From Candidatus Polarisedimenticolia bacterium (GTDB lineage: Bacteria > Acidobacteriota > Polarisedimenticolia > Gp22-AA2), in the NCBI GenBank assembly GCA_036001465.1, contig DASYUH010000041.1, positions 1 to 64,000 on the forward strand: DNA of 64,000 nucleotides. The letters run 5' to 3'. The notes under the pieces are model-generated. The model searched no databases, was not told where the DNA came from, and was given only the letters and a program-made list of their open reading frames with translations. Below are positions 6,969 through 50,906 of the stretch, in pieces (position 1 is the stretch's first letter; each line of letters begins with the position of its first letter). A program made the translations under genes and the position numbers.

Positions 6969-6986
6969 CCTCCTCCGGGGTGACGC

Positions 6987-7604
6987 TCAGACGATAAGGT
7001 ACACGAAGGTGAACACCAGGATCCAGATCAGATCCACGAAGTGCCAGTAGAGACCGGCGATCTCGACGGAGCTGTTGCGCTCGGGAGAATATCCCCCGCG
7101 GGCGCCCTTGATGAAGATGCAGATCAGGTAGATGACGCCCGACAGGACGTGGCAGCCGTGAAACCCGGTCAGGATGTAGAACGTGGCGCCGAACAGAGTC
7201 GAGACGCCGAACGGGTTCCCCTGGATCGTCAGGCCTTCATGGATGAGATGCGTCCACTCGTACGCCTGGATGCCCAGGAAGGTCGAGCCCCCGAGAATCG
7301 TTCCGAAGAGCCAGAGGAGGAGCCCCTTCCGGTCACCATGGCGGATCGCCGACAGCGCCTTCACCATGGTGACGCTGCTGCAGATGAGTATGAAGGTGTT
7401 GATCGCCGTCAGCGGCACGTCGAGGATCTGCGCGGGGTTCGGCCAGTTGCTGCTGCCGAGGCGCACGGCGCCGTAAGCCGCCAGGAGCCCGGCGAACGAC
7501 ATGGCGTCCGAGCAGAGGAAGATCCACATCATCAGCTTGCCCCATCCCGGGGTGAGCTGGTTCTCGAAGCGCTCGACTTCGTTCATGGTCGCGGCGTGCG
7601 CCAT
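6987..7604 (-). CDS. Cytochrome c oxidase subunit III (leftward copy)
   Basis: Integral membrane subunit III of a heme-copper oxidase, 205 residues, about five helices. Conserved blocks include WGKLMMWIFLCSDAMSF, FYILTGFHGCHVLSGV and LYWHFVDLIWILVFTFVYL. The frame is open further upstream, but the ATG at 7604 (MAHAATMNEVERFE) is chosen because GGGGGA lies about four bases before it and homology begins there. A second subunit III gene lies in the divergent cluster at 12775. Which copy assembles with subunit I, or whether they alternate, cannot be read from the sequence. Confidence 0.92.
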   Translation of the reverse strand: MAHAATMNEVERFENQLTPGWGKLMMWIFLCSDAMSFAGLLAAYGAVRLGSSNWPNPAQILDVPLTAINTFILICSSVTMVKALSAIRHGDRKGLLLWLFGTILGGSTFLGIQAYEWTHLIHEGLTIQGNPFGVSTLFGATFYILTGFHGCHVLSGVIYLICIFIKGARGGYSPERNSSVEIAGLYWHFVDLIWILVFTFVYLIV

Positions 7605-33116: not shown

Positions 33117-34094
33117 GTGCCGTCCGAGACGCGAATGCGAGAGTCGCCGTCGCCCGATGTGCGCGGATTCGCGCTCATCATCGCCTCGGCGTTCTGCTAT
33201 TCGCTCCTGTCGATCTTCGGCAAGTTCGCCCTGGCGCTCGGTCTGCCGCTTTGGCCCCTCCTGGCGTCCCGCTATCTGTTCGCCGCCGCGATCCTCTGGC
33301 TCTGGGTCCTGGGCGCGCGAGAGTACCGGCGGGCGTGCGTCCATCTCCCCGGCCGTCGCCGGGCGGAACTGATCGTGTGGGGCATCGTCGGATATTCGGG
33401 GCAGTCGGCCCTCTTCTTCCTGGCCCTGAAGCGGATTCCGGCGGGGTTGACGGAAGTGCTCCTGTACACCTGCCCCGCCTTTCTCGCCCTGATGCTCTGG
33501 GGGATCTCGCGACGTCGCCCGAAGTCGTCGCGGCTCGGGGCGATTGTCCTGGCGATGATGGGCGTCTGGCTGTGCGCCGGCCCCATCGGCGGCGCCGTGG
33601 ATGCGACGGGGGCGGCGCTGGCGGTCTTGTCGGGACTGTGGTACGCGGGTTTCCTCATCTGGATGCACCACCTGACGCCCGGCATCCCGGGAGCGGTCTC
33701 CGGCGCCTACATCATCACCGGGGCGGCCCTCTCCTTCGGGGCGGGAAGCGCGCTTCTCGGCGGCGGGTTCCTCTGGCCGCGGACGGCGATGGAGTGGGGG
33801 AGCATGGCCGGGCTCGTCCTGTCGTCGACGGTATTCGGATTCGTGCTGTTCCTGGCCGGCCTGAAGAGGGTCGGTCCTCAGGTGGCATCGGTCCTGAGCA
33901 CCTTCGAGCCGCTCGGCACCCTCCTCCTGGCCGCCTTCCTGCTCGACGAGAGGCTCCGGCCGCTGCAGTGGGCCGGCGCGGCCCTCATCATCGGGGCCGC
34001 CTTCGTCCTCGCCGCGACCGGTCCCATCGAAGAGGACCGGGTCGGTCCCGCCGACGCCCCCTTCCCGGCCCTGCCCGAGACCCCGGGTGCATGA
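33117..34094 (+). CDS. EamA family drug/metabolite transporter
   Basis: Inner-membrane transporter with two EamA repeats, ten helices in about 325 residues (family usually near 300). The first repeat starts GFALIIASAFCYSLLSIFGKFAL, and the second ends STFEPLGTLLLAAFLLDERLRPLQWAGAALIIGA, the canonical EamA finish. Substrate is unknown, possibly amino acids or small metabolites. GGAGG at 33106-33110 fits the GTG at 33117 (six-base spacing) better than the in-frame GTG at 33111, with which it abuts. The last 25 residues are a polar cytoplasmic tail. Confidence 0.9.
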   Translation: MPSETRMRESPSPDVRGFALIIASAFCYSLLSIFGKFALALGLPLWPLLASRYLFAAAILWLWVLGAREYRRACVHLPGRRRAELIVWGIVGYSGQSALFFLALKRIPAGLTEVLLYTCPAFLALMLWGISRRRPKSSRLGAIVLAMMGVWLCAGPIGGAVDATGAALAVLSGLWYAGFLIWMHHLTPGIPGAVSGAYIITGAALSFGAGSALLGGGFLWPRTAMEWGSMAGLVLSSTVFGFVLFLAGLKRVGPQVASVLSTFEPLGTLLLAAFLLDERLRPLQWAGAALIIGAAFVLAATGPIEEDRVGPADAPFPALPETPGA

Positions 34095-34207: not shown

Positions 34208-35122
34208 ATGAAGCCCGATTTCCGCGAGCTGGTCCAGAAACGCCTGGTCGTCTACGACGGCGGCATGGGGACCATGCTGTTCGCCGCCGGCCTCCTCGAC
34301 GGGGAGTCGCCGGAGCCCTGGAACTGGGAGAAGCCGGAGGTCGTCAACGAAGTCTACCGCGCCTATTACGAAGCCGGATCGGACGTGGTCCAGACGAACA
34401 CCTTCGGCGGCACCCCCATCAAGCTGTCGGAGCGCGACCTGCAGGACCGCACCTACGACGCCAACTGCCTGGCCGCGAAGGCCCTGAAGGGGATCTGCCC
34501 CGGGGATCGCTACGCGGCCGGGGACGTCGGCCCGATCGGCAAGTTCATGAAGCCGATGGGGGAGTTCACGCGCGAGGAGTTCGACGCCTCGTTCGAGGCG
34601 CAGGTCGAGGGGCTCGTCGACGGGGGCGTCGACCTGATCTCGATCGAGACGATGTACTCCCTCGAGGAGGCGCTGTGCGCCCTGCGCGCCGCGAAGAAGC
34701 GGTCGTCGCTGCCGGTCGTGGTCTGCATGACGTTCGATCGGAACCCGCGCGGCTTCTTCACCCTGATGGGGGAGACCGTGCCGCACTGCCTGAAGGTGCT
34801 CAAGGACAACGGGGCGGACATCGTGGGCAGCAACTGCTCACACGGCAGCCCGGTGTTCATCGAGCTGGCGCGCCTCCTGCGGGACAGCACGGACCTCCCC
34901 ATCATCGTGCAGCCGAACCGGGGGAAGCCGATTCTCGAGAAAGAGTCCATGGCCTACAAGCAGACGGTGGAGGAGTTCGTGATCGACGCCCGCACCATCG
35001 CCGCGATCGGCGTGAATGTCTTCGGCGGCTGCTGCGGCACCACGCCCGAGTTCATCGCCGGCCTGAGCCAGGCCGTGAAGCACGGCGCCCCCTGCGCCGC
35101 CTCCCGGGAGGACCGCCCTTGA
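34208..35122 (+). CDS. Homocysteine S-methyltransferase-like protein
   Basis: Zinc-dependent methyltransferase barrel of 304 residues, like the N-terminal module of MetH or betaine-homocysteine methyltransferase. It has the start LVVYDGGMGTMLFAAGL and the three zinc cysteines, one in VGSNCSHG and two in FGGCCGTTPEF. Homocysteine is the expected acceptor, and the methyl group would come from a corrinoid protein. It lacks the folate, cobalamin and activation domains of MetH; a stand-alone activation domain is encoded two genes downstream. Its stop overlaps the TTG start of the MttB-like gene. A TAGAAT lies about 43 bases upstream and GGGG just before the ATG. Confidence 0.88.
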   Translation: MKPDFRELVQKRLVVYDGGMGTMLFAAGLLDGESPEPWNWEKPEVVNEVYRAYYEAGSDVVQTNTFGGTPIKLSERDLQDRTYDANCLAAKALKGICPGDRYAAGDVGPIGKFMKPMGEFTREEFDASFEAQVEGLVDGGVDLISIETMYSLEEALCALRAAKKRSSLPVVVCMTFDRNPRGFFTLMGETVPHCLKVLKDNGADIVGSNCSHGSPVFIELARLLRDSTDLPIIVQPNRGKPILEKESMAYKQTVEEFVIDARTIAAIGVNVFGGCCGTTPEFIAGLSQAVKHGAPCAASREDRP

Positions 35123-36585
35123 GCCTCGTTCCCACCTTCAGGCCCCGCATCCAGATGCTCTCCAAGGAGATGATCGACCGGATCATCGACGAGGCGTTCG
35201 AGGTCCTCGGCACCATCGGGCTGCAGTTCGAGCACCCGAAGGCGCTGGCCCTTCTGGGCGAGCACGGCCAGCGCATCGACCGGGCGTCCGAGCGCGCCTG
35301 GCTGAGCCGCGACTTCGTCGAGAAGGCCATCCGGACGGCACCGAAATCCTTCAAGATCTGGAACGTCACGGGGGACGCCTCGATCGAGGTCGGGGGGGAC
35401 AACGTCACGTACGACCCCGGTTCGGCGGCGATCAAGATGCTCGAGACGGACGGCCACACGCGCCCCTCGACTTCGGCCGACTACATCCGCCTGGCGCGCG
35501 TGGTGCAGCAGCTCCCGCACATCCGCGCCGCGTCGACCTCGCTCGTCCCGTCGGACGTGCCGATGGAGATCTCCGACTTCTACCGGCTCTACCTGGCGGT
35601 GCAGCACTGCAACAAGCCGATCGTCACGGGGCTGTTCCGCGAGGAGTCGTTCCCGGCGACGCTCGAGATCCTGAGCGTCATCCGGGGCTCGGCGAAGGAG
35701 GCAGCCGAGAAGCCCCTGGCCATCTTCGACGCCTGCCCGTCGTCCCCCCTGCGGTGGAGCATCCTCACCTCCGAGAGCATCATGGAATGCGCCCGGCACA
35801 ACCTCCCGTCGGAGATCATCTCCGTCCCCCTGACCGGCGCGACGGGGCCGGTGACGTTCTCCGGCACCCTGGTGGTCCACACCGCCGAGAACCTGGCGGG
35901 AATTGCCCTGGCGCAGGCGGTCCGTCCGGGGGCGCCGGTGGTCTATGGCGGCGCGCCGTGCCTGATGGACATGCGGGCGGGCCAGACCCCGTTCGGATCG
36001 CTCGAGACGTACATGATCGACTGCGCCTACGCGCAGATCGGCAAGACCTTCGGGTTCCCGATCCACTCCTACATGGGCCTGTCCGACTCGAAAGTGGTGG
36101 ATGCGCAGGCGGGCTACGAGTCGGGCATGGGAGTGATGTTCGCGGCGCTCGCCGGGGTGAACATCGTCTCGGGCGTCGGCATCCTGGACTTCATCACCTG
36201 CCAGAGCCTCGAGAAGCTCGTCATCGACAACGAGCTGTGCGGCATGGCGTACCGCCTGATCGACGGGATCAAGCACCGGCACGAGAAGATGGCCATCGAC
36301 TTCCTCCCCGACGCGGTGAAGGCCGGACACTTCCTCGGCCATCCGACGACCCTCAAGCTCTTCAAGGAAGAGGGATACATGCCGGGCAAGGTGGTCGACC
36401 GCAGCTCCGCCCCCCAGGGCGGGGGCGGCCCCTCCGATTACCAGCGCGCCCAGGCCAGGGTGAAGGAGCTCCTCGCCATGGAGCCGTTCCACCTTGCCGA
36501 GGACAAGGTCAGGGAGCTCGACCGGATCGTCCTGCGCGAGTCGAAGGAGTTCGGCATGGAGGCGATCCCGGCCTTCGCCGGCTGA
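35119..36585 (+). CDS. MttB superfamily methyltransferase, non-pyrrolysine type
   Basis: 488-residue TIM-barrel methyltransferase related to trimethylamine:corrinoid methyltransferase. Canonical MttB needs an in-frame amber codon for pyrrolysine; this frame has none, so it belongs with the non-Pyl group (glycine betaine, proline betaine, carnitine or other quaternary amines). Features include TYDPGSAAIKMLE near the start, ISVPLTGATGPVTFSGTLV, and GAPCLMDMRAGQTPFGSLE in the conserved C-terminal half. The start is a TTG overlapping the previous stop (TTGA), with GGGAGGA six bases upstream; the open frame reaching further up belongs to a shadow. The substrate is not predictable from sequence. 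Confidence 0.88.
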   Translation: MSLVPTFRPRIQMLSKEMIDRIIDEAFEVLGTIGLQFEHPKALALLGEHGQRIDRASERAWLSRDFVEKAIRTAPKSFKIWNVTGDASIEVGGDNVTYDPGSAAIKMLETDGHTRPSTSADYIRLARVVQQLPHIRAASTSLVPSDVPMEISDFYRLYLAVQHCNKPIVTGLFREESFPATLEILSVIRGSAKEAAEKPLAIFDACPSSPLRWSILTSESIMECARHNLPSEIISVPLTGATGPVTFSGTLVVHTAENLAGIALAQAVRPGAPVVYGGAPCLMDMRAGQTPFGSLETYMIDCAYAQIGKTFGFPIHSYMGLSDSKVVDAQAGYESGMGVMFAALAGVNIVSGVGILDFITCQSLEKLVIDNELCGMAYRLIDGIKHRHEKMAIDFLPDAVKAGHFLGHPTTLKLFKEEGYMPGKVVDRSSAPQGGGGPSDYQRAQARVKELLAMEPFHLAEDKVRELDRIVLRESKEFGMEAIPAFAG

Positions 36586-36620
36586 GGCGCCCCGCCGTCC
36601 GCGCGCGCTCCCCCGACACC

Positions 36621-37232
36621 ATGGCTCCCATCCAGATCGCCGATCCCCTGCCGGTCACGGTGGCCCGGCCGATGGTGCTGATGCGCCTCGGCTACCGCCG
36701 ACCGGGCCAGGTGCCCGCGAAGACCGGCCTGCTCATCGACGAGGTCATGGAGGCAGGGCGGGCGCTCCTGCGCCCCCGGGCGATCTACGGCGCCTTCGAC
36801 GCCGCCACCCCCGAGGCCGGAGTGAGCCTGCTCGCCGGCGCGATCCGGGCGGAGAGCCGGTCGCTGCACGAACGCCTGCTCGGCTGCCGTCGCGCCATCC
36901 TGTTCGCCGCCACCATCGGCCCCGAGGCGGACGCCTGGATCCACGACCTGATGGACCGAGGGGAGATGACCCGGGGCCTCCTGGCGGACGCGTTCGCCAG
37001 CAGCGCCGCGATCGCCCTGGGGCTCGAGGTGGAGGCGCTCGCCGCGCGCGTCCTGGCCGCCGAAGGTCTCGCGCCCACGAAGCGGCACGCCCCGGGCTAC
37101 GGGGACTGGTCGCTCGGTGACCAGGCCCCGCTGCACGCTCTCCTCGACGCCAGCCGGATCGGCATCACGCTGACGGACGACTTCCTGATGGTCCCGGCCA
37201 AATCGATCACCGGCGTCATCGGGGGCCGTTAG
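36621..37232 (+). CDS. Stand-alone MetH activation-domain-like protein
   Basis: 203 residues resembling the C-terminal AdoMet-binding reactivation domain of cobalamin-dependent methionine synthase. Diagnostic blocks are RHAPGYGDWSLGDQAPLHALLD and the C-terminal FLMVPAKSITGVIG. It should support reductive methylation of oxidised cob(II)alamin in a partner corrinoid protein. That partner (a B12-binding DxHxxG protein) is absent here. With the two genes upstream it reads as the end of a disassembled MetH-like pathway with MttB as methyl donor module. It lies 35 bp after the MttB gene and converges on the metallophosphoesterase gene. Confidence 0.85.
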   Translation: MAPIQIADPLPVTVARPMVLMRLGYRRPGQVPAKTGLLIDEVMEAGRALLRPRAIYGAFDAATPEAGVSLLAGAIRAESRSLHERLLGCRRAILFAATIGPEADAWIHDLMDRGEMTRGLLADAFASSAAIALGLEVEALAARVLAAEGLAPTKRHAPGYGDWSLGDQAPLHALLDASRIGITLTDDFLMVPAKSITGVIGGR

Positions 37233-37242: not shown

Positions 37243-40200
37243 TCAGAGGCAGGCCGAGGAATTGGGGAGGATGACCCCCGCGGAGTCGGAGCCCAACGGT
37301 CTCTCCCCGCAACTGTTCCATCCGCTCACGAGGTAATAGAAGCCCTGCTGTGCCCCCGGCATCTCCGGGTCGGCCGCCGTCGTGCCCGTGGTGCGCGCCA
37401 CGAGGCAGGCGTGGTCATAGGCGAAGGGGAGTCCAATGAAGAGCGCGCCCCGATAGACATTGAACGCGGCGGCCTGGGGAACCGGCGACCAGGCCAGGTC
37501 GTCCGGGGCGGGGCCCAGGCCGAGGGAGTCGTCAATCTGCCCCGGGAGCGCGCTCACGCCGCCGTCCAGGGGGGCGCAGTCGAGGCCGTCCGGGGCACCG
37601 TCCCCGTCGTCATCCGGGTCGCAGGCATCCCCGGCCCCATCGGCGTCCGTGTCAGTCTGGTCGGTGTTCGGAATGGCCGGGCAGTTGTCGCATGCGTCCC
37701 CGCTCCCGTCGCCGTCGCCGTCCTCCTGTCCGGGATTGTCCGTCTCCAGGCAGTTGTCGCAGACATTCCCCACCGTGTCGGAATCGGCGTCGTACTGGGA
37801 AGGGTCGGGGACGAGCGGACAGGCGTCGCCCGTGTCGGACACGTCGTCGCCGTCGCCGTCCCGGTTGAGGATCGGGCAGGACACCGTGGGAACGATGTCC
37901 CCGCCTGCGCTGTCCCGGCCCGCCGCGCTCTCCGCGCAGGTGTTGCGCGCGCTCACCAGATAGTAGAAGGAGAGGCCGGCCTGGGGCGCCTCCGGGTCCA
38001 CGAGCTCCGTGCCGGGGACTTCGGCCTGCAGGCAGGTCTCGTTACGGGAGCGCGGACCGGTCGGCGCGAAGGTGCCGCGGTACACATTGGCGGTGTACCC
38101 GCCGCGACTGCGATTCCAGCGCAGCAGAGTGTCCGTGGCGGCCCCGGCCCGCTCCAGTCGCAGCGTGTCGGCGATCGGGGACGGAGGGGAGGACACGCTG
38201 CGCAGCAGGGGAGCGCAGTCCGCCGCGTCGGCGACGCCGTCGTTGTCGTCGTCGTCATCGCACGCGTCGCCACTGCCGTCCCCGTCGGCGTCCTCCTGCC
38301 CGGGATCGGGGACACAGGGGCAGACGTCCGTGCCGTCGGGGGTCCCGTCGCCGTCCGCGTCCGCGGTGCCGTCTCCGGACCGCACGCAGATCAGGCTCGG
38401 CTTTACCTTCGAGCTGGATCCCGCGACGTTCGAGGCGGTGAGGCGCACGCTGTACAGCCCGGGAGCGGCGTACGCGTGGGAGGGGCTCCGCTCCAGGCTG
38501 TCGACCGACCCGTCGTCGTCGAAGTCCCAGGACCACGCCGTCGGGCCGCCGAGCGATCGATCGGTCAGCTGGACCAGGAGGGGCGCGGTGCCCGAGGTTG
38601 GTGTCGCGTCGAAATCGGCCGCCGGCGCCGTCACACCCTTGATCATCGTGAAGGAGTCCCGCGTCACACCGGAGGAGTCCAGGAACCTGGCGTCGAGCCG
38701 GCGATCGTTCACGTCCAGGACCAGGGACCCCAGGGTGTTGAGCGACAGGAACATGGCCGGGTGGTCCAGGGGGCCGCCTCGGGCCTCGCCGGAGCTGCCG
38801 GCCACGACGTAGACCGCCCCCTCATGCGGCGCCGGTCCGGCGGACGGCTTGCTGTAGGCCCCCTGCCCGTCGGTCCGGCCGTCCCCGCCGTCCATCTTCA
38901 TCGCGTCGCCGAAGGTCGTGGAGGGCCCGTAGTGGCCGTTGATGAGGAACGAGCGCTCGTAGGAGTGGCTGTGCCCGGTGAGCACCAGATCGACGCCCCC
39001 CTGCTCGAGGATCGGCAGGGCATGCTTACGCATTTCAATCAGCTCGATCTCGGCGTCCGAGTCGTGCGATCCCTTGCTGTAGGGCGGGTGGTGCCAGAAG
39101 GCGATGATCCACGGCTGATTCGTGGACAGCACGTCCTGCTGCAGCCAGGTCATCATCGCGCCGCCCGTGGCCCGGCTGGTCTCGAACGACTCCAGGCAGA
39201 TGAAGTGGATGTTGGCGTGATCGAACGAGTAGTAGGCCTCCGTTCCGGAGGGGAGGCCGCCCGCCTCGCCGTTTCGTGGCAGCGTGAAGATGTCGTAGTA
39301 GGGGCCTGTCTGGGTCGCCGAGTCTGCGGTGATCCCGTCGTGGTTGCCGAGCGTCGGCCAGAGCACGGTCTGCCGCAGCATCTCGGGGAACATGTCGAAC
39401 AGGGCCGACTGGTACTGCAAATCGGTTCCGTCGGGGTAGGCGTTGTCCCCCAGCATGAGCCACAGGTTGGTGGGGCTGCCCGCGGCGAACTGGGTGTACG
39501 CGTCGCGCACGGCGCGGGCGTTGGCGTCCGCCGTGCCGGAATCGCCGACGACCCAGATACGCGTCGGCGCAGCGGTCCCTGCGGGCGGCGCGGTTTGAAA
39601 CGAGTAGGACGGATCTCCACCCACGAGGATCGCGGCGGGGGTGCCGACCGCGTAATAGTAGCGGGTCGACGGAGCCAGCCCGGTCAGGGCCAGCGAGTGC
39701 TCGGTCGTCGGCGTCGGGTCGAGGACGGAAGAGGACAGATCGGCCGGGTCGGTCCCGTACAGGACGCGGCTTCCGTTCGCCACCTCGGTCCGCCAGCGCA
39801 CGACGAGCTCCGTCGGCGTGCCCATCTGAAGATAGGGTCCCCGCGTCAGGCCACCTGTCCTGTTGGCGGAAAGGAACGGCACGACCACCAGGTCGGAGGA
39901 TGTCGCGCCACCGCTGTTCCACACGCCGACCACGAGGACGTTGACGCCGGCGTGCAGGGCGGGGAGCGCCCGCGCCGAGACGTCCACGAGCGTGCCGTAG
40001 TTCGGAGAAGTTCCGTTGCTCGACTCGTGCAACCCCGAGTTCGTGTTCCATGCCGGGGTGCCCGCGGGCATGCCGGGAGAGCGCGCCACCTCCACGCCGT
40101 TGATCCAGGCGACGTAGCCGTCGTCGTAGTCGGCGCCGAAGGAAAGGTCGGTGACCGTAGAGGGATCGTTGACGGTGAAGCGGGCGCGCGTGTAGACGGA

Positions 40201-40491
40201 AAGCGTTCCGGCCGGCACCGCCGTGCGGATGAGCGCGGAGGCACCGGGGGGAGCCGTCTCGTAGCCGACCCCATAGACGCCCGGGGTCCAGGACGAGTCG
40301 TCGAACGCTTCCGCGATGAAGCTCGTGCCGATGCCCGGATCGGACGAGTTCGCGCGATAGGTCATCGGCGAGCCGAACTGGACCAGGATGACGGAGGCCG
40401 CCGCGGCCGGCCCGGGAGCCTGGGAGACGCCTTCCAGGAGGGCGATGAGGGCTGGAAACAGAAGCGCGGTGCGCAGGCGATTCCCGCTCAT
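37243..40491 (-). CDS. Secreted multidomain metallophosphoesterase with thrombospondin-3 repeats
   Basis: 1,082 residues. In order: signal peptide; a jelly-roll/galactose-binding-like domain (about 36-200); a purple-acid-phosphatase N-terminal Ig-like domain (about 215-305); a calcineurin-like phosphoesterase (about 312-575) with VGDSG, MLGDNAYPD, LGNHDG, FWHHPPYS and LTGHSHSYER, a complete dimetal site; a PKD domain (about 640-710); then thrombospondin type 3-like Asp-rich calcium repeats interleaved with two FN3-like modules (YYLVSARNTC, YYLVSGWNSCGERPLG). It ends in SSACL. It would hydrolyse phosphate esters outside the cell, possibly for phosphate acquisition. Last gene of the giant-protein operon; the ATG overlaps the TPR stop by four bases. 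Confidence 0.88.
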   Translation of the reverse strand: MSGNRLRTALLFPALIALLEGVSQAPGPAAAASVILVQFGSPMTYRANSSDPGIGTSFIAEAFDDSSWTPGVYGVGYETAPPGASALIRTAVPAGTLSVYTRARFTVNDPSTVTDLSFGADYDDGYVAWINGVEVARSPGMPAGTPAWNTNSGLHESSNGTSPNYGTLVDVSARALPALHAGVNVLVVGVWNSGGATSSDLVVVPFLSANRTGGLTRGPYLQMGTPTELVVRWRTEVANGSRVLYGTDPADLSSSVLDPTPTTEHSLALTGLAPSTRYYYAVGTPAAILVGGDPSYSFQTAPPAGTAAPTRIWVVGDSGTADANARAVRDAYTQFAAGSPTNLWLMLGDNAYPDGTDLQYQSALFDMFPEMLRQTVLWPTLGNHDGITADSATQTGPYYDIFTLPRNGEAGGLPSGTEAYYSFDHANIHFICLESFETSRATGGAMMTWLQQDVLSTNQPWIIAFWHHPPYSKGSHDSDAEIELIEMRKHALPILEQGGVDLVLTGHSHSYERSFLINGHYGPSTTFGDAMKMDGGDGRTDGQGAYSKPSAGPAPHEGAVYVVAGSSGEARGGPLDHPAMFLSLNTLGSLVLDVNDRRLDARFLDSSGVTRDSFTMIKGVTAPAADFDATPTSGTAPLLVQLTDRSLGGPTAWSWDFDDDGSVDSLERSPSHAYAAPGLYSVRLTASNVAGSSSKVKPSLICVRSGDGTADADGDGTPDGTDVCPCVPDPGQEDADGDGSGDACDDDDDNDGVADAADCAPLLRSVSSPPSPIADTLRLERAGAATDTLLRWNRSRGGYTANVYRGTFAPTGPRSRNETCLQAEVPGTELVDPEAPQAGLSFYYLVSARNTCAESAAGRDSAGGDIVPTVSCPILNRDGDGDDVSDTGDACPLVPDPSQYDADSDTVGNVCDNCLETDNPGQEDGDGDGSGDACDNCPAIPNTDQTDTDADGAGDACDPDDDGDGAPDGLDCAPLDGGVSALPGQIDDSLGLGPAPDDLAWSPVPQAAAFNVYRGALFIGLPFAYDHACLVARTTGTTAADPEMPGAQQGFYYLVSGWNSCGERPLGSDSAGVILPNSSACL

Positions 40492-40928: not shown

Positions 40929-43900
40929 TCACGGGCAGGCGCTCGCCGGCAGGATCTCCGCACCGGACGAGGCGTGCCCGTAAGTCCCGGAGCCACAGAA
41001 GGAGCTCTGGGAGCGGACGATGTAGTAGTAGGACTCGCCCCGCGGCGGTGCCGGCCGCGTGTCGATGAAGCTGGCGTTCACAAGATCGTTCCCGCCAGGG
41101 ACGCAGGTGGCGTTCAGCGCGCCACCGTCCGGCCGGAGCCGCGAGAGGAGTCCGCCCGCCACATCGTAGTGGAGCCCGCCGCCCTGGCCTGTCCAGGTCA
41201 TCACATAGGAGCGATCGGGGGCCCGGACGAAGAGCAGGTCCAGGATCTCGGCGGGCGGTGCCGCCGAGGACAGCGGATCGAGCGGCTTGCAGTCCTGCCC
41301 GTCGGCCGTGCCGTCGCCGTCGTCATCCGTATCGGCGCAGTCGGCCTGCCCATCGTGGTCGTTGTCCGGGAAGCCGTCGTCCACGATTCCGTTGCAGTCG
41401 TTGTCCAGCCCGTCGCACCGCTCGGCCTCTCCCAGGGACAGTCGGGGGACGAGGACCAGATCGGTGGACGTGGAGAGGTTGTTCCACACGCCGATCGCCA
41501 GGACGTTGTCGCCAACCACGAGCGCCGGCAGCGCCCGCGCGGTGACGTCCCTGATCGGCGAGTAGTTCGGGGCGGCCCCGTTGCTCGATTCGTGGTCCGC
41601 CGCCGGCGTGGTCGGATTGAGCGGACCGAAAGGCATCTCGGCCGAGCCCAGCACTTCGACCCCGTTGATCCAGGCCACCGTGCCGTCGTCGTAGTCCACG
41701 CCCAGAGTCACGCTCTGGATCGCCGCCAATGCGGCGGCATCCGGGATGTTGAAGTGCGCCCGGGTGAAGACCGACAGCGTGCCGGCCGGAACGCTCGTCT
41801 TGATCAGGTTGAGGGCGTTCGGGGCCGGCGCCGTGTCGTAGCCGACGCCGTAAGTCCCCGTCGACCAGGTCGAGTCGTTGAAGCTCCTGGCCGTCCAGTC
41901 CAATCCGATGGACAGCTTCGGAACGACCACCAGGTCGGTCGAGGTGGCGGCGCCGCTGTTCCAGACACCGACCGCCAGCACGTTGGTCCCGTTGTGCAGG
42001 AGTGAAATGCTGCCGGTCAGATCAATCAGCGTTCCATAGTTAGGCAGCGCCGCATTGCTCGACTCGTGAAGCGCGGCGTTGGTGTTCCAGGCCGGGCTGC
42101 CGGCCGGCATGGTCGACGATCGCGCCACCTCGACACCGTTGAGGTAGGCGACGTACCCGTCGTCGTAGTCCGCCCCGTAGAACAGGCTCTTCACCGTCGA
42201 GACGTCGGCGAGGCTGAAGGTCGCGCGGGTGAACACCGAGAAAGTTCCCGCTGGAACGCCGGTCTTGATGAGACTCAGTGCGTTGGGGGGCGCCTCGGTG
42301 TCGTAACCGACGCCGTACGTGCCGGAATTCCAGCCGGTGTCGTCGTACGTCTCGTTGATCCAGGCGAGCCCGATTCCCGGATCGGCAGAGTTCGCCTTGT
42401 AGCGCATCGGGGAGTCGATCTGGACCAGAACCGTATCCTCGGCCGCGGTCGTCGCGTTGTTGGCGAGGTACCTCATCGAGGTGTTGATCTGCGCCACGAT
42501 GTTCGGCGTCGCGGGCGACGTGGTGCCGACGCACACGATGCTCCCGCCCGTGCACTGGGTGATGCCGGCGGAACAGACGCCCGGCTGCCCGGTCGAGCAC
42601 GCGACGCCGCCGCCCGGGTTCCCTTCGTCGATCAGCGTATTGCAGTTGTCGTCGAGGCCGTTGCAGACCTCGGGAGGCGCAGCCCCGGAGGTGCACGTGC
42701 CGGCGATGCAGGAATCACCCGCGGTGCAGGTGTTGCCGTCGTCGCAGGCGCTGCCATCGGGCTTGGACGGGTTGGAGCAGAGACCGCTTGCCGGGCTGCA
42801 GACGCCCGGCACGTGGCACTGGTCGGACGCGACGCAGACCACGGCGCTGCCTGCGGCGCAGAGACCGGATTGACAGGTGTCGCTCAGCGTGCAGGCGTTG
42901 CCGTCGCTGCAGAGCGAGCCGTTCGCCTTCGCCGGGTTGGAGCAGACGCCGGTCGCCGGATTGCAAGTGCCCGCGTCGTGGCACTGGTCGGATGCGGTGC
43001 AGACCACCGGGTTGGCGCCGGAACAGACACCGGCCTGACAGGTGTCCGTCTGGGTGCAGGCGCTTCCGTCATTGCAGGCTGCGCCGTTCGGCCTGGCGGG
43101 GTTGGAGCAGACGCCGGTGGCCGGATTGCACGTCCCCGCGTCGTGACACTGATCGGACGCCGTGCAGGTGACAGGGTTGGAGCCGGTGCAGACGCCGGAC
43201 TGGCAGGTGTCGGTCCGGGTGCACGCATTGCCGTCGTCGCACGATGCGGTGTTGTTGACGTGCCGGCACCCGAGGACCGGATCGCAGGAATCGGTCGAGC
43301 AAGGGTTGCCGTCATCGCAATTCGGCGGCGGCGTCCCGGCGCAGGCCCCGTCATGGCACACCCCCGTGCCGTTGCACACATCTCCGTCGTCGCAGGAGGC
43401 GGTGTTGTTGCTGTGCCGGCACCCGACGGGCGGATCGCATGAATCGTCCGTGCAGACATTGTTGTCGTTGCAATCAGCCGCCGGCCCGGGAGCGCAGGCG
43501 CCGTTCTGACAGGCGTCGGTCGTGGTGCACGCGTTACCGTCGCTGCAAGCCGCGCCGTTGGGCTTGGCGGGGTTGGAGCAGAGGCCGGTGCCCGGGTCGC
43601 ACGTCCCTGCGTTGTGACACTGGTCGGAGGCCGTGCAGGTGACGGTGTTGGATCCGGTGCAGACGCCGGCCTGGCAGGTGTCGGTCTGGGTGCAGGCGTT
43701 GCCGTCGCTGCAGGCCGCGCCGTTCGGCTTGGCCGGGTTGGAGCAGACTCCGGTGGCCGGATTGCAGGTTCCCGCGTTGTGACACTGGTCGGAGGCCGTG
43801 CAGGTGACGGTGTTGGATCCGGTGCAGACGCCTGACTGGCAGGTGTCGGTCTGGGTGCAGGCGTCGCCGTCGCTGCAGGCCGCGCCGTTGGGCTTGGCGG

Positions 43901-46900
43901 GGTTGGAGCAGAGGCCGGTGCCCGGGTCGCACGTCCCCGCGTCGTGGCACTGATCGGAGGCCGTGCAGATGACGGTGTTGGATCCGGTGCAGACGCCGGC
44001 CTGGCAGGTGTCGGTCGGAGTGCAGGCGTTGCCGTCGCTGCAGGCCGCGCCGTTGGGCTTGGCGGGGTTGGAGCAGAGGCCGGTGCCCGGGTTGCAGGTC
44101 CCCGCGTCGTGGCACTGGTCGGAGGCCGTGCAGGTGACGGTGCTGGATCCGGTGCAGACGCCGGCCTGGCAGGTGTCGGTCTGGGTGCAGGCGTTGCCGT
44201 CGCTGCAGGCCGCGCCGTTGGGCTTGGCGGGGTTGGAGCAGAGGCCGGTGCCCGGGTCGCAGGTCCCCGCGTCGTGGCACGCGTCGGAGGCCGTGCAGGT
44301 GACGGTGTTGGATCCGTTGCACACGCCGGCCTGGCAGGTGTCGGTCTGGGTGCAGGCGTTGCCGTCGCTGCAGGCCGCGCCGTTCGCGAGGCTGGTGTGC
44401 GTGCAGATGTCGCTCCCCGCGAAGGGCAGGCCCGTCGTGCTCCAGGTCGTCGCTCCCGTGAGGGTTCCGGCGCTGCCGCCCGCAGAGTCGGAGGCGTTCG
44501 TCAGCGACCCTTCATTGAAGCTCCAGCGGTGCACGAGCCCCGCGGCCGAGCCGATCTCGCGTCCCATTTCCGCGGCCGTCTCCGCCTGGGTCCGGGCGTA
44601 GTTCCAGATCCGGATCTCGTCGAGGCGGCCGTCGAACGGCAGCCCGACGGCGCCTGTATCGAGGCGCGCGGCGCCTATCATCGACTGGCTCGTGAAGCTG
44701 ACGGGATTCGTCCCCAGGAGGTTCGCTACCGCGGTGGCCGGGGCACCGCCGTTCAGGTGCAGGCGAAGCTGCTGGTTGCCGGGTGTGCGGTCGACGACGA
44801 AGGCGAAGTGCGCCCAGGTATTGACCGTCAGAGCCGTGCCGTGGGTCACGTCCACCTGCGTCCCCGTGGTGTTCGACTCGACGGATCCGGCGATCTGAAG
44901 GTTGCCGGTCCCGGTGAGCTGCACGGCGACCTGCGGGAAGGCTCCCTGCTGGCCGCCACGGAAGATCCCGGTCAGGGAGGCGGCGCCGCCGTCGGTGTAC
45001 ACCCACCCTTCGATCGTGAAGCTGCCGGTCCCGAAGTAATTGACGTAGTCGGGGCTGGAGTCGCTCCCGCCGCCCAGGGCAAGGTCCACGCGGTTCGCCG
45101 CCGCACCCGGCGAGGGGAATGAAACCGCCGCGTCGTTCGTGGTGTTGCAGGAATCGGCGGTGCACGAGTTCGAGTCGCTGCACTGGTAGTCCGCGGTGCA
45201 CGACGCGCAGTTCGGGATCGGCGTGTTCGAGCACGTTCCGGGAGCCACGGGGGACTTGTCCGTCGCGCTCCAGGCCGTGGCCACGTTGAAATTGGTCAGG
45301 GTGCCGTTCTGAGCGGGCGTCGTCGAGTCAGCGGCGGCCGTGCCACCGTTCTCGTTCAGACCCCAGCGGCCGATGAGGCCGGTGCCCGAGGTGATCTCCT
45401 GGTCCTTCCCGGCCTGGATCTCCGCGAGGCTTCGCGCCACGTTCCAGACCCGCACCTCGTCCAGCAGGCCCTGATAGAAGCCGGTCGCCGCACCCGTTGA
45501 GGTCAGAGTCGTGCCCAGCCCGAAGTGCTGGATGCTGGTCGATTCCGGCGTCGCCCCGGGACAGACCGTGCACGCCCCGCCGGCGCAGGTCGAGCACGAC
45601 GTGTCGATCGGCAAGGCGGCGCCGTCCAGGAAGAGCGTCCAGCACGTGCCGTTGTAGGCGGCCGCGGCATGGTGCCAGACGTTCGTGCTGATCGTCGGCT
45701 GGGCCGCCGCGGTGCACACGGGGTGATTCAGGCCGGTCGCGGAGTCCTCGAAGTCGCCCGCGAGCCTGCCTCCGGCGATCCCCAGGATGTAGTTCGCGTT
45801 GAGGTTCGGCGGGGTCTCGGCCTGTGCGGCCCCCTTCGCCACGAGCGGGATCAAGGCGGCGATGCCGCCGGTGCCGGTGGATGTGGTCACGCCTGCCCCG
45901 GTCCACTTGAACCAGGTCTCCACCGTGAAGGTCGTCGCCCCCAGGGCGGAGGTCCCGGCCGCGGCCCCCATGGTCACGTAGTCGTTGGTCCCGTCGAAGC
46001 TCAGCGCCGAGAGGTTCGGGGTCGTGCACGCGTCGGTCGTGCAGCCGTTGAAGTCGTTGCAGCTGGCGTTGGTGGTGCACGAGCCGGGGATGACGTTGGT
46101 GCAGTTCCCGTCCGGCGCCCCGGTGCAGGCATCGGAGGTCGCCGCGACGCCGTCGTTGCAGTCGGCGTTGGAATCGCAGCAGGCCGGGGTGGGGGAGTAC
46201 CAGCTCAGACAGGCGCCGCCGACGCAGGCGTCACCCGTGCAGGCGTTGGCGTCGGCGCAGGCGTTGCTGTTGTCGTTCGGGTGCGTGCAGCTCCCGCCGC
46301 TGCAGACGTCGTCGGTGCAGGGGTTGCCGTCCTCGCTGCAGGGTGCGTTGTTGTTGGTGTGAACGCAGGCGGACGACGGACTGCACGAGTCGGTGGTGCA
46401 CGGGTTGCCGTCGTTGCAATCGGCCGCGGTCGAGCAGGGAGTGCAGCCGGGGATCGGGGTGTACGAGCAGGTCCCGGAGGTCAGCGGGGCCCTGTCGGTC
46501 GGGCTCCAGGCCGGGCCGCTCGTGAGCGTCCCGTTTTCGGCGGGTGTCGTGGAGTCGCCGGCCGTCGTGCCGGCATTCTCGTTCAGGCCCCAGCGACCGA
46601 TGAGGTTGGGAGCCGAGCTCACCTCCTGGAACCGGTCGGCCTGGATCTGCGCCAGGCTCCGCGCCACGTTCCAGACGCGCACCTCGTCCAGCCGGCCCTG
46701 ATAGAAGCCTGCCGCCGTACCGGTTGATGTCAGCGTGGTGCCCAGCCCGAAGTGCTGGATGCTGGTCGATTCCGGCGTCGCCCCGGGGCAGACCGTGCAC
46801 GCCCCGCCGGCGCAGGTCGAGCACGCCGTGTCGATCGGCACGGCCACGCCGTCCAGGTAGAGTTGCCAGCAGGTGCCGTTGTAGCTGGCCGCGGCGTGGT

Positions 46901-49900
46901 GCCAGACGTTCGTGCTGATCGTCGGCTGCGCGGCCGCGGTGCACACCGGGTGGTTCAGGCCGGTCGCGGCATCCTCGAAATCCCCCGCGAGCCTGCCTCC
47001 GGCGATGCCGAGGATGTAGTTCGCGTTCACATTCGCCGGGGTTTCGGCCTGCGCGGCCCCCTTCGCCACGAGCGGGATCAGCGCGGCGATGCCGCCGGTG
47101 CCGGTGGATGTGGTCACACCCGCACCGGTCCATTTGAACCAGGTCTCCACCGTGAAGGTCGCCGCCCCCAGGCTGCCGGTCCCGGCGGACGGTCCCATGG
47201 TCACGTAATCGTCCGTCCCGTCGAAGCTCAGCGCCGCGACGTTGGCGCTGACGCACTCGTCCGCCGTGCAGCCGTCGGAGTCGTTGCAGTCCGCGCCGGT
47301 CGCGCAGACCAGGTTCACGTTGCTGCAGGTGCCGGCCGAGCAGGAGTCCGCCGTTGCGGGGTTTCCGTCATCGCAATCCGCGGCGGTCGTGCAGCAGCCC
47401 GGGGTCGGGTTGTACGGGTTCTGGCAGGATCCCGACACGCACTGATCCGTGCCGGTGCACGCGTTGCCGTCGTCGCAGCTCAGCGTCCCGGCGCAGACCC
47501 CGTTCGTGCAGATGTCGTCGTTCGTGCAGCCGTCGCCGTCATTGCAGGCGCCGCCGTCGTTGGCGGGGATGTGCAGGCAGCTCCCGCCGGTGCAGCTGTC
47601 GGCCGTGCACGGATTGCCGTCGTCGCAGCTCAACGGCAGGTACAGGCAGGCGCCGCCCACCGCCGGCCGGTCCGAGGAGTCGAAGACAGGGCTGCCGACG
47701 AGGGTGCCGTTCTCCGCCGGGCTCGTCGAATCGGTCGCCGTCGAGTCGTCGAACCCGTAATGCGCGATCAGATTGGCTGCGGTGGCGATCAGCTCGTCCC
47801 GGGCGTCCGCGATCTCGGGGGCGGACCGCTCGACGTTCCACACGCGCACCTCGTCGATCTTCCCCTGGTAGCGTCCGTTCACGCCGCCGGTCGAGGTCAG
47901 CGACGTGCCGATGCCGAAATGCTGGATGCTGTTCGGCTCGGGTGTCGCGCCCGGAGTGGTGGTGCAATTGGGCGCCACACAGGTCGTGCAGGTCGTGTTG
48001 TCGGTGGTCAATGTCTGGGCCACGCCGTCCAGGTAGAGGCGCCAGCCGTTCGCCGGGCTGTAGGTGGCCGCCACATGATGCCAGCCGGTGGCCGGGACGT
48101 TGCCGGTCGAGCAGACGGCGTGGTTCAGCCCGGTCGCCGCGTCCTCGAAGTCGGCCGCCAGCCTCCGGTTCGATCCTTCGACGTCCAGGCCCAGGAAGTA
48201 GTTCATGTTGACGTTGGCCGGTGTCTCCGCCTGGGGCGCCCCCTTGGCGACCAGCGGAATGGCGCTGGCGAGACCCTGGGTGCCGGTCGAGATGCCGGTC
48301 CCGCTGGTCCCGTTGATCCACGCCTCGATCGAGAACGCGGGCGAGGCATTGAGTCCGGCGGCGGCGCCCATGGTCACGTGGTCGTCCACGCCGTCGAGAA
48401 CGAGGGAGCGGAGGTTCGCCGCGGTGCAGCTGTCGGTCGTGCAGGCATCGCCGTCGCTGCAGTCGGGGTTCGCCAGGCACGCCGTATTCACGTTGCTGCA
48501 GGTCCCCGCCGAACAGGTGTCGGTCGTGGTCGCGATGCCGTCGTCGCAGTCCGCGGGGCTCGCGCAGCAACCGGCGAACGGGGTGTACGGGTTCTGGCAG
48601 ACGCCCCCGACGCAGGCATCGGGCCCCGTGCAGGACCGGCCGTCGTTGCAGTCGATGGGCGTGTTCTCGCAGGAGTGGCCCGACAGATTGCAGGCGTCGT
48701 TGGTGCACGGGTCGGCGTCGTCGCACTCGGCGTTCGTCCCGCAGCAGTCGGCGATCGGCGAGTGGAGGCACGATCCGCCGTTGCAGGTGTCCGTCGTGCA
48801 GAAGATGGCATCATCACACTCGGCATTCGTGGAGCACGAGGCGGTGAACGTCCACAGGGGCCCCGTGGTCGTCAGCTCGCCGTCCGAGACCTCCGCGAAC
48901 CATTCATACTCCTGCCCCGTCTCGCGCCCCGGCCACGCGGCGCACGCCCGCCCGCCGCTCGCCACGCCGGACGCCGTCCCGATGGTGGCGAACGGCGTGC
49001 CGCTGTCCATGTCGTAGCCCAGGACGAAATCGTTCTGCGCCGTCCCCGCCGTGTTGTCGGCGTGGTTGTTGATGAACTGACCGAGGGTCGGAGAGTAGGT
49101 CTGCACGTGGAACGTGTCGCTCGCCGGCGAGAAGGTCATGATCCGGAGCCACCCGTTCCCGCCGTTGGGGCGGGACTGGTAGTCCGACAGGAGCGAGTGG
49201 ATCGGGTGCCCGTCGTCGGCCAGGTCGGTGCGACGGTTCGCCTGGTCCAGGTGGCCGGCCAGCATCAGGAAGACGTTGGGCAGGTCCTTGATGGCGTTGA
49301 AGGTCGCCTGGCCCTGGTTCGAGAACGTCCCGTTGGTGTTCAACAGGTAATGGGAGGTGATGATCGCCCGCCGGTTGCTGTAGGTCGTGCTCAGGAGGGT
49401 GTGCACCCAGTTCAGCACCGCCTGCCGGGTCGGATTGTCCACGTCGTCCCACTCCAGGTGGAACGCGATGAAGTTCATCCCGCTGGCGCTGAACAGCTCG
49501 AAGTGGTTGTCCATGCTGTCGGAGTACTGCGCGGGGACCCCGAAGTCGTAGTGGCCTCCGAAATACCCCCGGCCCTGGAACCGGAAGGCCCCGAACGTCC
49601 GGTTGTAGTACTGCGTGGTGCCTCCGAACGTCCCCCCCGCGCCGCCGAACGCCGTTCCCTCGTCCGCGCCGGACCGGGCGGTCGCGAAGGGAGTCTGGTC
49701 GTGGTTGCCGACGGCGATCCCGTACGGGATGCCATGCGCGAGCCCGGTCGTGAACGAGTCCTCGAGGAGGCTGAACGCCGAGTTGGCGGTGGTCCACTGC
49801 GACGGGATGTTGTTGCCGTCGTTGGTGCAGTCGCCGAGCTGGGTCACGAAGGCGATGTTCCGGCTCAGGAGGTTGTCGACGATCCACTGCGTCTGGGCGC

Positions 49901-50906
49901 TGAAGGTCGCCGGGTAGCTCTGCGCGTAGTACTGGGTGTCCGGGAGCGCGATGAGGGTGAAGTCCTGCGGCGCGGGTTGCCCGGTGGGGCGCCCCTTGAA
50001 GGTCACCGTGAGCTGGCCGCCATCCGGGTCGCTCGCGTCCACGCACAGCGTGGGGCTGGCCGAGACGCCCGTGGAGCCGGTTGCCGGGGACTCGTTGGAA
50101 GGCGGATTGGGCGAACGGTCGGTCGTGAAGGTCACCGCCAGGCGCGGCCGGTTCGCGACCGTCGCCGCCTCGGACGAGTCGAACCCCCAGCCATCGGTGC
50201 CGCCGGGCAGGAGCGCCCAGCCGAGGTTGCTCCCGCCGGCGGACCAGGCGGCCAGGCTCGCGGTCACCCCGATCGAGAAGGGTCCGGTGGCGCTCGAGGC
50301 GCCGCTCACGTCGGCCGTCGCGACGGCCTCGATCCCGTTCGCCTGCACGCCGCCGACCAGCGAGTTCCAGGTGCTCGTGGCGCTCCAGCTCTGGATCATG
50401 CGATGGAACGCGGCGGCATTGGCGCTGACGTTGCTCACATTGACCGTGAGAGTGGCCGAAAGGATCGTGGCGCCCGGAGGAACCTGACCCGCCCCGTTTC
50501 CGATGATGCCGTCGAAGCGGATCAGGACGTGCCGCAGCGGGCTGCCATCCACGGTGATCGTCGTCGCCGCCGAGTTGTCCGCATCCGGGGTGTCGAAGGC
50601 GATCAAGGTGTCGACGGTCCCCGCGTATCCGTCCACCCCCTGCTGGAAGGTGAGGGTCGAGGAGCTCATCGCCGGGCTGATCCCCTGCGGGTCGACCTGA
50701 GTCGCCGTCGATCCAGGGGTCGCATGGGTGACCGACGGGAAGGCCTCTCGCCGAATCACCTGAGCCACGGAAGTCAGGGTCTGGGCATGGATCGTCAGGA
50801 TGACGAGTGCCGGGAGTATGAGGGCGAGGGGAAAAAATATTGCGGTGAGGTTTCGACGAGAGCGAAGCCAGGGCATCCTAAGCAAGGCGGCTAGTCTGAC
50901 GGGCAT
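40929..50906 (-). CDS. Giant secreted protein: phosphoesterase, LamG and Cys-rich repeats
   Basis: 3,325 residues. A signal-like N-terminal helix (LTAIFFPLALILPALVILTI) is followed by a DNRLRE-like domain (about 60-230), a calcineurin-like phosphoesterase (about 320-560; LPDTQYY, QLGDCTNDGN, VGNHDQ, LAGHLDQ), EGF-like Cys-rich repeats, four LamG/concanavalin-type domains (about 830-1080, 1220-1475, 1625-1885, 1930-2170) separated by Cys-rich linkers, a 165-bp-unit Cys-rich array (about 2170-2730), a MopE-like motif (CNGLDDNC), two jelly-roll domains, a second MopE-like motif (CDGLDNDCNG) and a C-terminal FN3-like module ending SACP. The ATG at 50906 has GGAGG eight bases upstream, which decides against 51101. 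Probably an adhesive or matrix protein with enzyme activity; no transporter is adjacent. Confidence 0.88.
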   Translation of the reverse strand: MPVRLAALLRMPWLRSRRNLTAIFFPLALILPALVILTIHAQTLTSVAQVIRREAFPSVTHATPGSTATQVDPQGISPAMSSSTLTFQQGVDGYAGTVDTLIAFDTPDADNSAATTITVDGSPLRHVLIRFDGIIGNGAGQVPPGATILSATLTVNVSNVSANAAAFHRMIQSWSATSTWNSLVGGVQANGIEAVATADVSGASSATGPFSIGVTASLAAWSAGGSNLGWALLPGGTDGWGFDSSEAATVANRPRLAVTFTTDRSPNPPSNESPATGSTGVSASPTLCVDASDPDGGQLTVTFKGRPTGQPAPQDFTLIALPDTQYYAQSYPATFSAQTQWIVDNLLSRNIAFVTQLGDCTNDGNNIPSQWTTANSAFSLLEDSFTTGLAHGIPYGIAVGNHDQTPFATARSGADEGTAFGGAGGTFGGTTQYYNRTFGAFRFQGRGYFGGHYDFGVPAQYSDSMDNHFELFSASGMNFIAFHLEWDDVDNPTRQAVLNWVHTLLSTTYSNRRAIITSHYLLNTNGTFSNQGQATFNAIKDLPNVFLMLAGHLDQANRRTDLADDGHPIHSLLSDYQSRPNGGNGWLRIMTFSPASDTFHVQTYSPTLGQFINNHADNTAGTAQNDFVLGYDMDSGTPFATIGTASGVASGGRACAAWPGRETGQEYEWFAEVSDGELTTTGPLWTFTASCSTNAECDDAIFCTTDTCNGGSCLHSPIADCCGTNAECDDADPCTNDACNLSGHSCENTPIDCNDGRSCTGPDACVGGVCQNPYTPFAGCCASPADCDDGIATTTDTCSAGTCSNVNTACLANPDCSDGDACTTDSCTAANLRSLVLDGVDDHVTMGAAAGLNASPAFSIEAWINGTSGTGISTGTQGLASAIPLVAKGAPQAETPANVNMNYFLGLDVEGSNRRLAADFEDAATGLNHAVCSTGNVPATGWHHVAATYSPANGWRLYLDGVAQTLTTDNTTCTTCVAPNCTTTPGATPEPNSIQHFGIGTSLTSTGGVNGRYQGKIDEVRVWNVERSAPEIADARDELIATAANLIAHYGFDDSTATDSTSPAENGTLVGSPVFDSSDRPAVGGACLYLPLSCDDGNPCTADSCTGGSCLHIPANDGGACNDGDGCTNDDICTNGVCAGTLSCDDGNACTGTDQCVSGSCQNPYNPTPGCCTTAADCDDGNPATADSCSAGTCSNVNLVCATGADCNDSDGCTADECVSANVAALSFDGTDDYVTMGPSAGTGSLGAATFTVETWFKWTGAGVTTSTGTGGIAALIPLVAKGAAQAETPANVNANYILGIAGGRLAGDFEDAATGLNHPVCTAAAQPTISTNVWHHAAASYNGTCWQLYLDGVAVPIDTACSTCAGGACTVCPGATPESTSIQHFGLGTTLTSTGTAAGFYQGRLDEVRVWNVARSLAQIQADRFQEVSSAPNLIGRWGLNENAGTTAGDSTTPAENGTLTSGPAWSPTDRAPLTSGTCSYTPIPGCTPCSTAADCNDGNPCTTDSCSPSSACVHTNNNAPCSEDGNPCTDDVCSGGSCTHPNDNSNACADANACTGDACVGGACLSWYSPTPACCDSNADCNDGVAATSDACTGAPDGNCTNVIPGSCTTNASCNDFNGCTTDACTTPNLSALSFDGTNDYVTMGAAAGTSALGATTFTVETWFKWTGAGVTTSTGTGGIAALIPLVAKGAAQAETPPNLNANYILGIAGGRLAGDFEDSATGLNHPVCTAAAQPTISTNVWHHAAAAYNGTCWTLFLDGAALPIDTSCSTCAGGACTVCPGATPESTSIQHFGLGTTLTSTGAATGFYQGLLDEVRVWNVARSLAEIQAGKDQEITSGTGLIGRWGLNENGGTAAADSTTPAQNGTLTNFNVATAWSATDKSPVAPGTCSNTPIPNCASCTADYQCSDSNSCTADSCNTTNDAAVSFPSPGAAANRVDLALGGGSDSSPDYVNYFGTGSFTIEGWVYTDGGAASLTGIFRGGQQGAFPQVAVQLTGTGNLQIAGSVESNTTGTQVDVTHGTALTVNTWAHFAFVVDRTPGNQQLRLHLNGGAPATAVANLLGTNPVSFTSQSMIGAARLDTGAVGLPFDGRLDEIRIWNYARTQAETAAEMGREIGSAAGLVHRWSFNEGSLTNASDSAGGSAGTLTGATTWSTTGLPFAGSDICTHTSLANGAACSDGNACTQTDTCQAGVCNGSNTVTCTASDACHDAGTCDPGTGLCSNPAKPNGAACSDGNACTQTDTCQAGVCTGSSTVTCTASDQCHDAGTCNPGTGLCSNPAKPNGAACSDGNACTPTDTCQAGVCTGSNTVICTASDQCHDAGTCDPGTGLCSNPAKPNGAACSDGDACTQTDTCQSGVCTGSNTVTCTASDQCHNAGTCNPATGVCSNPAKPNGAACSDGNACTQTDTCQAGVCTGSNTVTCTASDQCHNAGTCDPGTGLCSNPAKPNGAACSDGNACTTTDACQNGACAPGPAADCNDNNVCTDDSCDPPVGCRHSNNTASCDDGDVCNGTGVCHDGACAGTPPPNCDDGNPCSTDSCDPVLGCRHVNNTASCDDGNACTRTDTCQSGVCTGSNPVTCTASDQCHDAGTCNPATGVCSNPARPNGAACNDGSACTQTDTCQAGVCSGANPVVCTASDQCHDAGTCNPATGVCSNPAKANGSLCSDGNACTLSDTCQSGLCAAGSAVVCVASDQCHVPGVCSPASGLCSNPSKPDGSACDDGNTCTAGDSCIAGTCTSGAAPPEVCNGLDDNCNTLIDEGNPGGGVACSTGQPGVCSAGITQCTGGSIVCVGTTSPATPNIVAQINTSMRYLANNATTAAEDTVLVQIDSPMRYKANSADPGIGLAWINETYDDTGWNSGTYGVGYDTEAPPNALSLIKTGVPAGTFSVFTRATFSLADVSTVKSLFYGADYDDGYVAYLNGVEVARSSTMPAGSPAWNTNAALHESSNAALPNYGTLIDLTGSISLLHNGTNVLAVGVWNSGAATSTDLVVVPKLSIGLDWTARSFNDSTWSTGTYGVGYDTAPAPNALNLIKTSVPAGTLSVFTRAHFNIPDAAALAAIQSVTLGVDYDDGTVAWINGVEVLGSAEMPFGPLNPTTPAADHESSNGAAPNYSPIRDVTARALPALVVGDNVLAIGVWNNLSTSTDLVLVPRLSLGEAERCDGLDNDCNGIVDDGFPDNDHDGQADCADTDDDGDGTADGQDCKPLDPLSSAAPPAEILDLLFVRAPDRSYVMTWTGQGGGLHYDVAGGLLSRLRPDGGALNATCVPGGNDLVNASFIDTRPAPPRGESYYYIVRSQSSFCGSGTYGHASSGAEILPASACP
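42725..44390 (-). repeat. 165-bp tandem repeat array inside the giant gene
   Basis: Unit of 165 bp (55 residues, about nine cysteines; core ACSDGNACTQTDTCQAGVC and CTASDQCH-AGTC-PGTGLCSNPA). Phase points are at 42725, 42890, 43055 and 43220, then a 306-bp block of different Cys-rich repeats, then 43526, 43691, 43856, 44021, 44186 and a partial unit at 44351. The five units from 43526 to 44350 are nearly identical in DNA, and the flanking ones are more diverged, as expected for recent in-frame expansion. Every unit is a multiple of three. Confidence 0.9.
45260..47215 (-). repeat. Direct repeat of two near-identical LamG segments
   Basis: Two copies of about 0.72 kb (roughly 45260-45985 and 46490-47212), offset by 1,227 bp (409 codons), encode LamG domains 3 and 2. 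Long stretches match almost base for base, for example at 45511 and 46738. The first (47.7-48.4 kb) and fourth (44.4-45.1 kb) LamG copies are more diverged. Confidence 0.85.

Follow-up and report, generated by a model that had tools for sequence, protein, structure and literature searches.

Three co-directional genes on the plus strand (34208-37232) are predicted to encode the acceptor, donor, and repair parts of a methionine synthase that is modular, depends on B12, and is fed by an MttB-superfamily methyltransferase and not by folate, a reading whose probability we place slightly above one half (about 0.55). The window, that is, the whole stretch of DNA that was analysed, covers the initial 64 kb of contig C41. 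This contig belongs to the draft genome (MAG) of an uncultured acidobacterium of the gp22 type, with 4.58 Mb in 114 contigs (100% complete). An earlier sequence-only reading had recognized three linked genes at this place, and their common strand, Pfam matches, and conserved adjacency confirm this. The order, however, is homocysteine methyltransferase (HMT), MttB, and activation domain (ACT), and not MttB first as had been given, while the sequence supports the earlier description of a MetH split into separate parts in which another module has taken the place of the folate one. The genes, together with the transporter gene that precedes them, are as follows.

33159..34094, + strand: EamA-type transporter (PF00892), directly upstream of HMT
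34208..35122, + strand: HMT, homocysteine S-methyltransferase of the MtgE/MetH module-1 type, 304 aa (PF02574, 208.6 bits)
35119..36585, + strand: non-pyrrolysine MttB-superfamily methyltransferase (donor:corrinoid), 488 aa from TTG (PF06253, 303.1 bits)
36621..37232, + strand: ACT, stand-alone MetH activation domain for putative SAM-dependent reductive reactivation, 203 aa (PF02965)

HMT and MttB are coupled through the overlap of their coding sequences: the TGA stop of HMT (35120-35122) overlaps the TTG start of MttB (35119), and a TTGA or GTGA junction is also present in five relatives. The stop of MttB is separated from the start of ACT by 35 nt in the window, and ACT overlaps MttB in locus L072. 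The EamA gene is possibly part of the same operon; it lies upstream of HMT in six of the eight family loci, with none seen in L034 and L036. An EamA transporter gene is also found in a Zixibacteria cluster, where it is placed between ACT and MttB (L079:1788-2678). No SAM or cobalamin riboswitch was detected near the cluster in the window region or at 33 other loci, and a promoter and terminator scan at the cluster gave no matches above chance. A FIST gene upstream and a purple-acid-phosphatase-like gene downstream on the other strand were judged unrelated and merely adjacent. The stretch 37243-40491 encodes a protein of 1082 aa that combines purple acid phosphatase, PKD, and TSP3 domains, beside which a 3246-aa repetitive cysteine-rich protein is encoded on the minus strand (40929-50669).

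The zinc-binding cysteine pattern of HMT consists of C210 and the CC pair 275-276; among the aligned HMTs, C210 is present in 56/56 and C275 in 55/56. Within the PDB set, HMT is closer overall to MetH than to BHMT, its best match being the N-terminal half of T. maritima MetH (159 bits, versus 49-54 bits for BHMT). This argues against HMT working alone as a BHMT-type betaine- or DMSP-homocysteine methyltransferase, with MttB and ACT as neighbours that share no methyl carrier, a view that we regard as very improbable. It does have a precedent in purified Phaeobacter Bmt, which forms methionine straight from DMSP or betaine in vitro in a corrinoid-free reaction (PMC12366255), and this activity can, by analogy, be raised as the main caution on the role proposed for HMT. 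The BHMT-named NCBIfam model PRK07534 also matches HMT, at 195 bits and thus under its cut-off of 338. Relatives, on the other hand, encode a corrinoid protein between ACT and HMT, and a reactivation domain would make little sense without a corrinoid.

ACT is a MetH activation domain as judged from its modelled fold and its SAM motif. The match to PF02965 is weak (29.1 bits, cut-off 25), but an AlphaFold model (pLDDT 90) makes the assignment secure: in the PDB, the model is closest to TM0269 (1j6r, Z 20.9), an activation domain that stands alone, followed by the activation domains of MetH, after which the matches fall to Z 6. The ACT profile scores 76.6 bits against 1j6r, and the motif RHAPGYGDW of the window protein fits the SAM motif RxxPGY (RHAPGY). 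No second PF02965 match is found in the host genome. Many ACTs outside the gp22 family end in Cx2Cx4C (rows L085, L100, L102, L114, L131), possibly a metal or Fe-S site, which the window ACT does not carry.

The MttB of the window had been read as a non-pyrrolysine enzyme, and this stands: Leu321 occupies the position of pyrrolysine 334, and the gene has no in-frame stop, so that the pyrrolysine feature of trimethylamine MttB is missing. The score against TIGR02369 is 339 bits, under the cut-off of 525. In a tree, 87 module-type MttBs are set apart from MtgB, from pyrrolysine MttB, and from the paralogues in the window genome (branch 1.74, SH-aLRT 99; the reference rows are long-branched). A methylated amine or betaine had been suggested as the methyl donor, and glycine betaine is doubtful for the module MttB because the residues that correspond to the MtgB contacts are replaced in the window and module sequences. 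Four such contacts, Y94, N199, R309, and H345, have been proposed from docking (PMC6855144), and the window MttB has S102, C206, H316, and S351 in their place, all four changed. Its pocket signature is S102/C206/H254/H316/S351; in the 87 module-type sequences, S102 never varies, and C206 is replaced once (by Thr) and S351 three times (by Ala). Other amines, or methyl-THF, may be the donor, and the families that recur near the module (61 loci) include none with an evident relation to a donor. The structure that AlphaFold predicted for MttB from an alignment of 13 rows was poor around the active site (pLDDT 69) and was left unused.

The host genome encodes four MttB proteins. The paralogue on C60 retains the MtgB-like N and R, and two further, divergent paralogues on contig C80 (L023:7084-8592 and L023:18704-19990, with L024) have pocket residues that differ again; by eye, these two share the contig with FAD-dependent, phytoene-desaturase-like genes. 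The Rfam family PYLIS_3, the pyrrolysine insertion element of mttB, scores above threshold inside the mttB genes of 14 loci (L102, at 6945-7042, L114, L115, L116, L131, L093, L079, L100, L103, L132, L135, L144, L096, and L122); these genes read through as non-pyrrolysine MttBs, and the match probably reflects shared coding sequence.

HMT, MttB, and ACT are adjacent in the same order in all eight family genomes found, the other seven having MttBs of 79-92% identity. At the lower-scoring MttB loci of the same genomes, HMT or ACT lies within 1.5 kb in 0/10 checked, and the grouping is thus not due to chance. A wider scan with one genome per species retained the 80 best relatives, chosen by MttB similarity alone, and HMT accompanies MttB in 46 of them, MtgC in 50, and ACT in 45. 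The arrangement MttB-ACT-MtgC-HMT occurs at 30 loci, HMT-MttB-ACT and MttB-MtgC-HMT at five each, and HMT-ACT-MttB, MtgC-HMT-MttB, and RACo-HMT-MtgC-MttB at two each; at 19 loci, many on short contigs, MttB has no nearby partner, and the remainder are partial. Two clusters carry RACo, a reactivator of another type, in place of ACT. The module spans about a dozen phyla, usually with its own B12 protein in the cluster, and its HMT-bearing hosts include Acidobacteriota, Zixibacteria, WOR-3, Cloacimonadota, Planctomycetota, Chloroflexota, Spirochaetota, Gemmatimonadota, Neomarinimicrobiota, Aminicenantes, and Eisenbacteria, among others. In the archaeal members (Jordarchaeia, Njordarchaeum), MttB occurs alone or with MtgC, and no HMT lies nearby. 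A classical catabolic arrangement without HMT is present in another acidobacterium (L069:3426-11259), consisting of two MttBs, MtgC, a DUF1638-like protein, a pterin methyltransferase, and RACo.

A corrinoid protein is absent from the window operon and had been expected to be shared or encoded elsewhere, and the genome search located a stand-alone MtgC-type protein on contig C52 (46.87 kb). B12-binding domains occur at ten places in the genome, and this one alone, among those annotated, resembles a stand-alone methyl-carrying corrinoid protein in length and family: it has 250 aa, the domains PF02607 and PF02310, and the motif GDIHDIG, which contains DxHxxG, and it scores 217 bits against the NCBIfam MtgC model, under the cut-off of 310. 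The gene belongs to a series that encodes an IclR regulator, the corrinoid protein, a MetV-like protein (PF12225), MetF (PF02219, 113.5 bits), a pterin methyltransferase (NF005719, 292.9 bits, above the cut-off of 259), and RACo. Besides this RACo-type activator, the ACT of the window operon is a putative reactivator in the genome. In the corrinoid protein tree, proteins of the MttB-ACT-MtgC-HMT arrangement separate from those of other arrangements, and the latter include the C52 protein (SH-aLRT 99); the window MttB likewise groups with kin of other arrangements, with weaker support. These placements fit a partnership between the window operon and the C52 protein without proving it.

No MetH was found in the host genome (PF02574 and profile searches in the draft of 114 contigs). 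The three PF02574 proteins present are the window HMT, an HMT-MTHFR fusion on C52, and an MmuM-like protein on C32, none of them MetH, and the case named beforehand as contrary, an intact MetH together with a complete Mtt system, therefore does not hold. The search for MetE yielded a split MetE-like pair on C89, with catalytic-type and N-terminal-type barrels. Given this pair and the HMT-MTHFR fusion, both of which are retained in the family of the window operon, methionine could arise otherwise, and the module need not be the only methionine synthase of its host.

Every module of MetH is thus present in the genome although MetH itself was not found, and HMT, the C52 MtgC and pterin methyltransferase, and ACT could jointly act as a conventional folate-fed MetH divided over four proteins, a reading in line with the genetics of Phaeobacter (PMC5764234), with MttB as a side entrance. 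We consider this arrangement unlikely, since a methyl-THF:corrinoid methyltransferase, that is, the pterin module, lies beside the cluster at none of the 80 loci, and neither MetF nor such a methyltransferase was seen in several of the module genomes. A second way of reading the C52 series takes catabolic methylotrophy as the primary role: MttB, together with the C52 operon, would demethylate an amine and oxidize its methyl group through THF, and HMT and ACT would merely top up methionine and SAM. The only MtbC/MtgC-like corrinoid protein found does sit with the THF branch, the host has four MttB paralogues, and such a pathway has been proposed for the growth of Ruegeria on betaine (PMC12478193); HMT is nevertheless coupled to MttB, the only ACT of the genome is located here, and across phyla the MttB clade accompanies HMT and not the methyl-THF methyltransferase, all of which make this scheme rather improbable, a shade more so than the folate-fed one.

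In the preferred reading, that of an MttB-fed methionine synthase, MttB would demethylate a small compound, probably a quaternary or otherwise methylated amine, and load the methyl group onto the Co(I) corrinoid of an MtgC-type protein. HMT would then pass the methyl group from the methyl-corrinoid to zinc-bound homocysteine, yielding methionine, and ACT would restore corrinoid that has been oxidized to Co(II) by reductive re-methylation with SAM. In the host, the corrinoid protein would be supplied by the separate C52 operon and would be shared with the THF branch, in which the methyl-THF methyltransferase, MetF/MetV, and RACo would provide a second outlet from methyl to THF and on to oxidation. 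This outlet probably competes with methionine for the corrinoid-bound methyl group, because the C52 corrinoid protein adjoins the genes for these four proteins.

Approximately 37 module genomes were searched with profiles for MetH, MetE/Mes (PF01717), MetF, and pterin-binding proteins, a search that unusual types of MTHFR or synthase would escape. Six of them (G028, G065, G070, G074, G076, and G078) have no MetH, MetE, or MetF by profile search, and their pterin-binding matches are only at the level of dihydropteroate synthase, with one additional sub-threshold match in G076. G028, which is the same genome as G063, is from an acidobacterium and is 100% complete, and the records of G070, G074, and G076 are single contigs titled "chromosome". 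G028, G074, G076, and G078 have no PF02574 protein besides the HMT of the module and no PF02965 protein besides its ACT, and additional partial PF02574 matches are found in G065 and G070. PF01053, which includes possible homocysteine-making enzymes, scores high in G028, G070, G076, and G078 and low in G065 and G074, and the latter two may therefore only recycle homocysteine. Both MetH and a full MetE are missing from 9/9 MetF-negative module genomes versus 3/19 MetF-positive ones (Fisher p 3e-5, which is indicative, as relatedness is uncorrected; the gp22 genomes were left out). Some module genomes, such as G071 and G075, also have MetH and MetF. We tentatively suggest, at somewhat less than even odds, that MttB-ACT-MtgC-HMT adds one more family to the folate-independent methionine synthases, a family that spans about a dozen phyla, uses one common donor, and is the sole methionine route in lineages without MetF, MetH, and MetE.

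If true, this would explain how the methionine cycle is closed in deep uncultured lineages without detected MetH, MetE, and MetF, namely Zixibacteria, WOR-3, TA06, Cloacimonadota, and some Acidobacteriota. It would also give a large MttB clade a function and an acceptor, and would add a route that is overlooked by genome-based predictions of methionine and folate dependence.

No description of an MttB-ACT-MtgC-HMT cluster was found in the literature searched. The module appears to be a variant of the published MtgBCDE and split-MetH idea, equipped with a SAM-dependent reactivator. In Ruegeria pomeroyi, MtgBCDE is both a glycine betaine demethylase and a methionine synthase in which MtgC and MtgD serve both functions; mtgC and mtgD mutants are methionine auxotrophs unable to use glycine betaine, and mtgE is stated to lie mostly apart from mtgBCD (PMC12478193). 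The two systems share an MttB-superfamily donor enzyme, a separate HMT, a stand-alone corrinoid protein that would be common to the donor and homocysteine branches, and a pterin methyltransferase and MetF elsewhere in the genome. Unlike the Ruegeria system, in which RamA/DUF1638 serves for reactivation, the window operon has a SAM-type MetH activation domain, its HMT is coupled to MttB, its MttB pocket differs from that of MtgB, and the clusters of its relatives are without MtgD. The split methionine synthase of Phaeobacter inhibens consists of HMT, corrinoid, and pterin modules as separate proteins; methionine synthesis there depends on the pterin module, and PF02965 proteins were not detected (PMC5764234). 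The MetH domains are likewise separate proteins in the present case, whereas the window operon includes an activation domain and has MttB in the place of the donor; in MetH itself, by contrast, the HMT, pterin, B12, and activation domains are joined in one polypeptide. MtgB, MtpB, MtcB, MtyB, and MthB are quaternary-amine methyltransferases that feed THF or coenzyme M (PMC6855144, PMC12155760); the window MttB resembles them as a non-pyrrolysine member of the superfamily with predicted methyl transfer to a corrinoid protein, but its clade stands apart from MtgB in the tree and has none of the proposed glycine betaine contacts. The folate-independent "core" methionine synthases MesA-MesD are of the MetE type and probably receive the methyl group from a corrinoid protein (MesA-C) (PMC7857596). 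The module is similar in its predicted formation of methionine without methyl-THF, and it differs in having, for homocysteine, an HMT of the MetH type that is accompanied by its own partners for donor, corrinoid, and reactivation.
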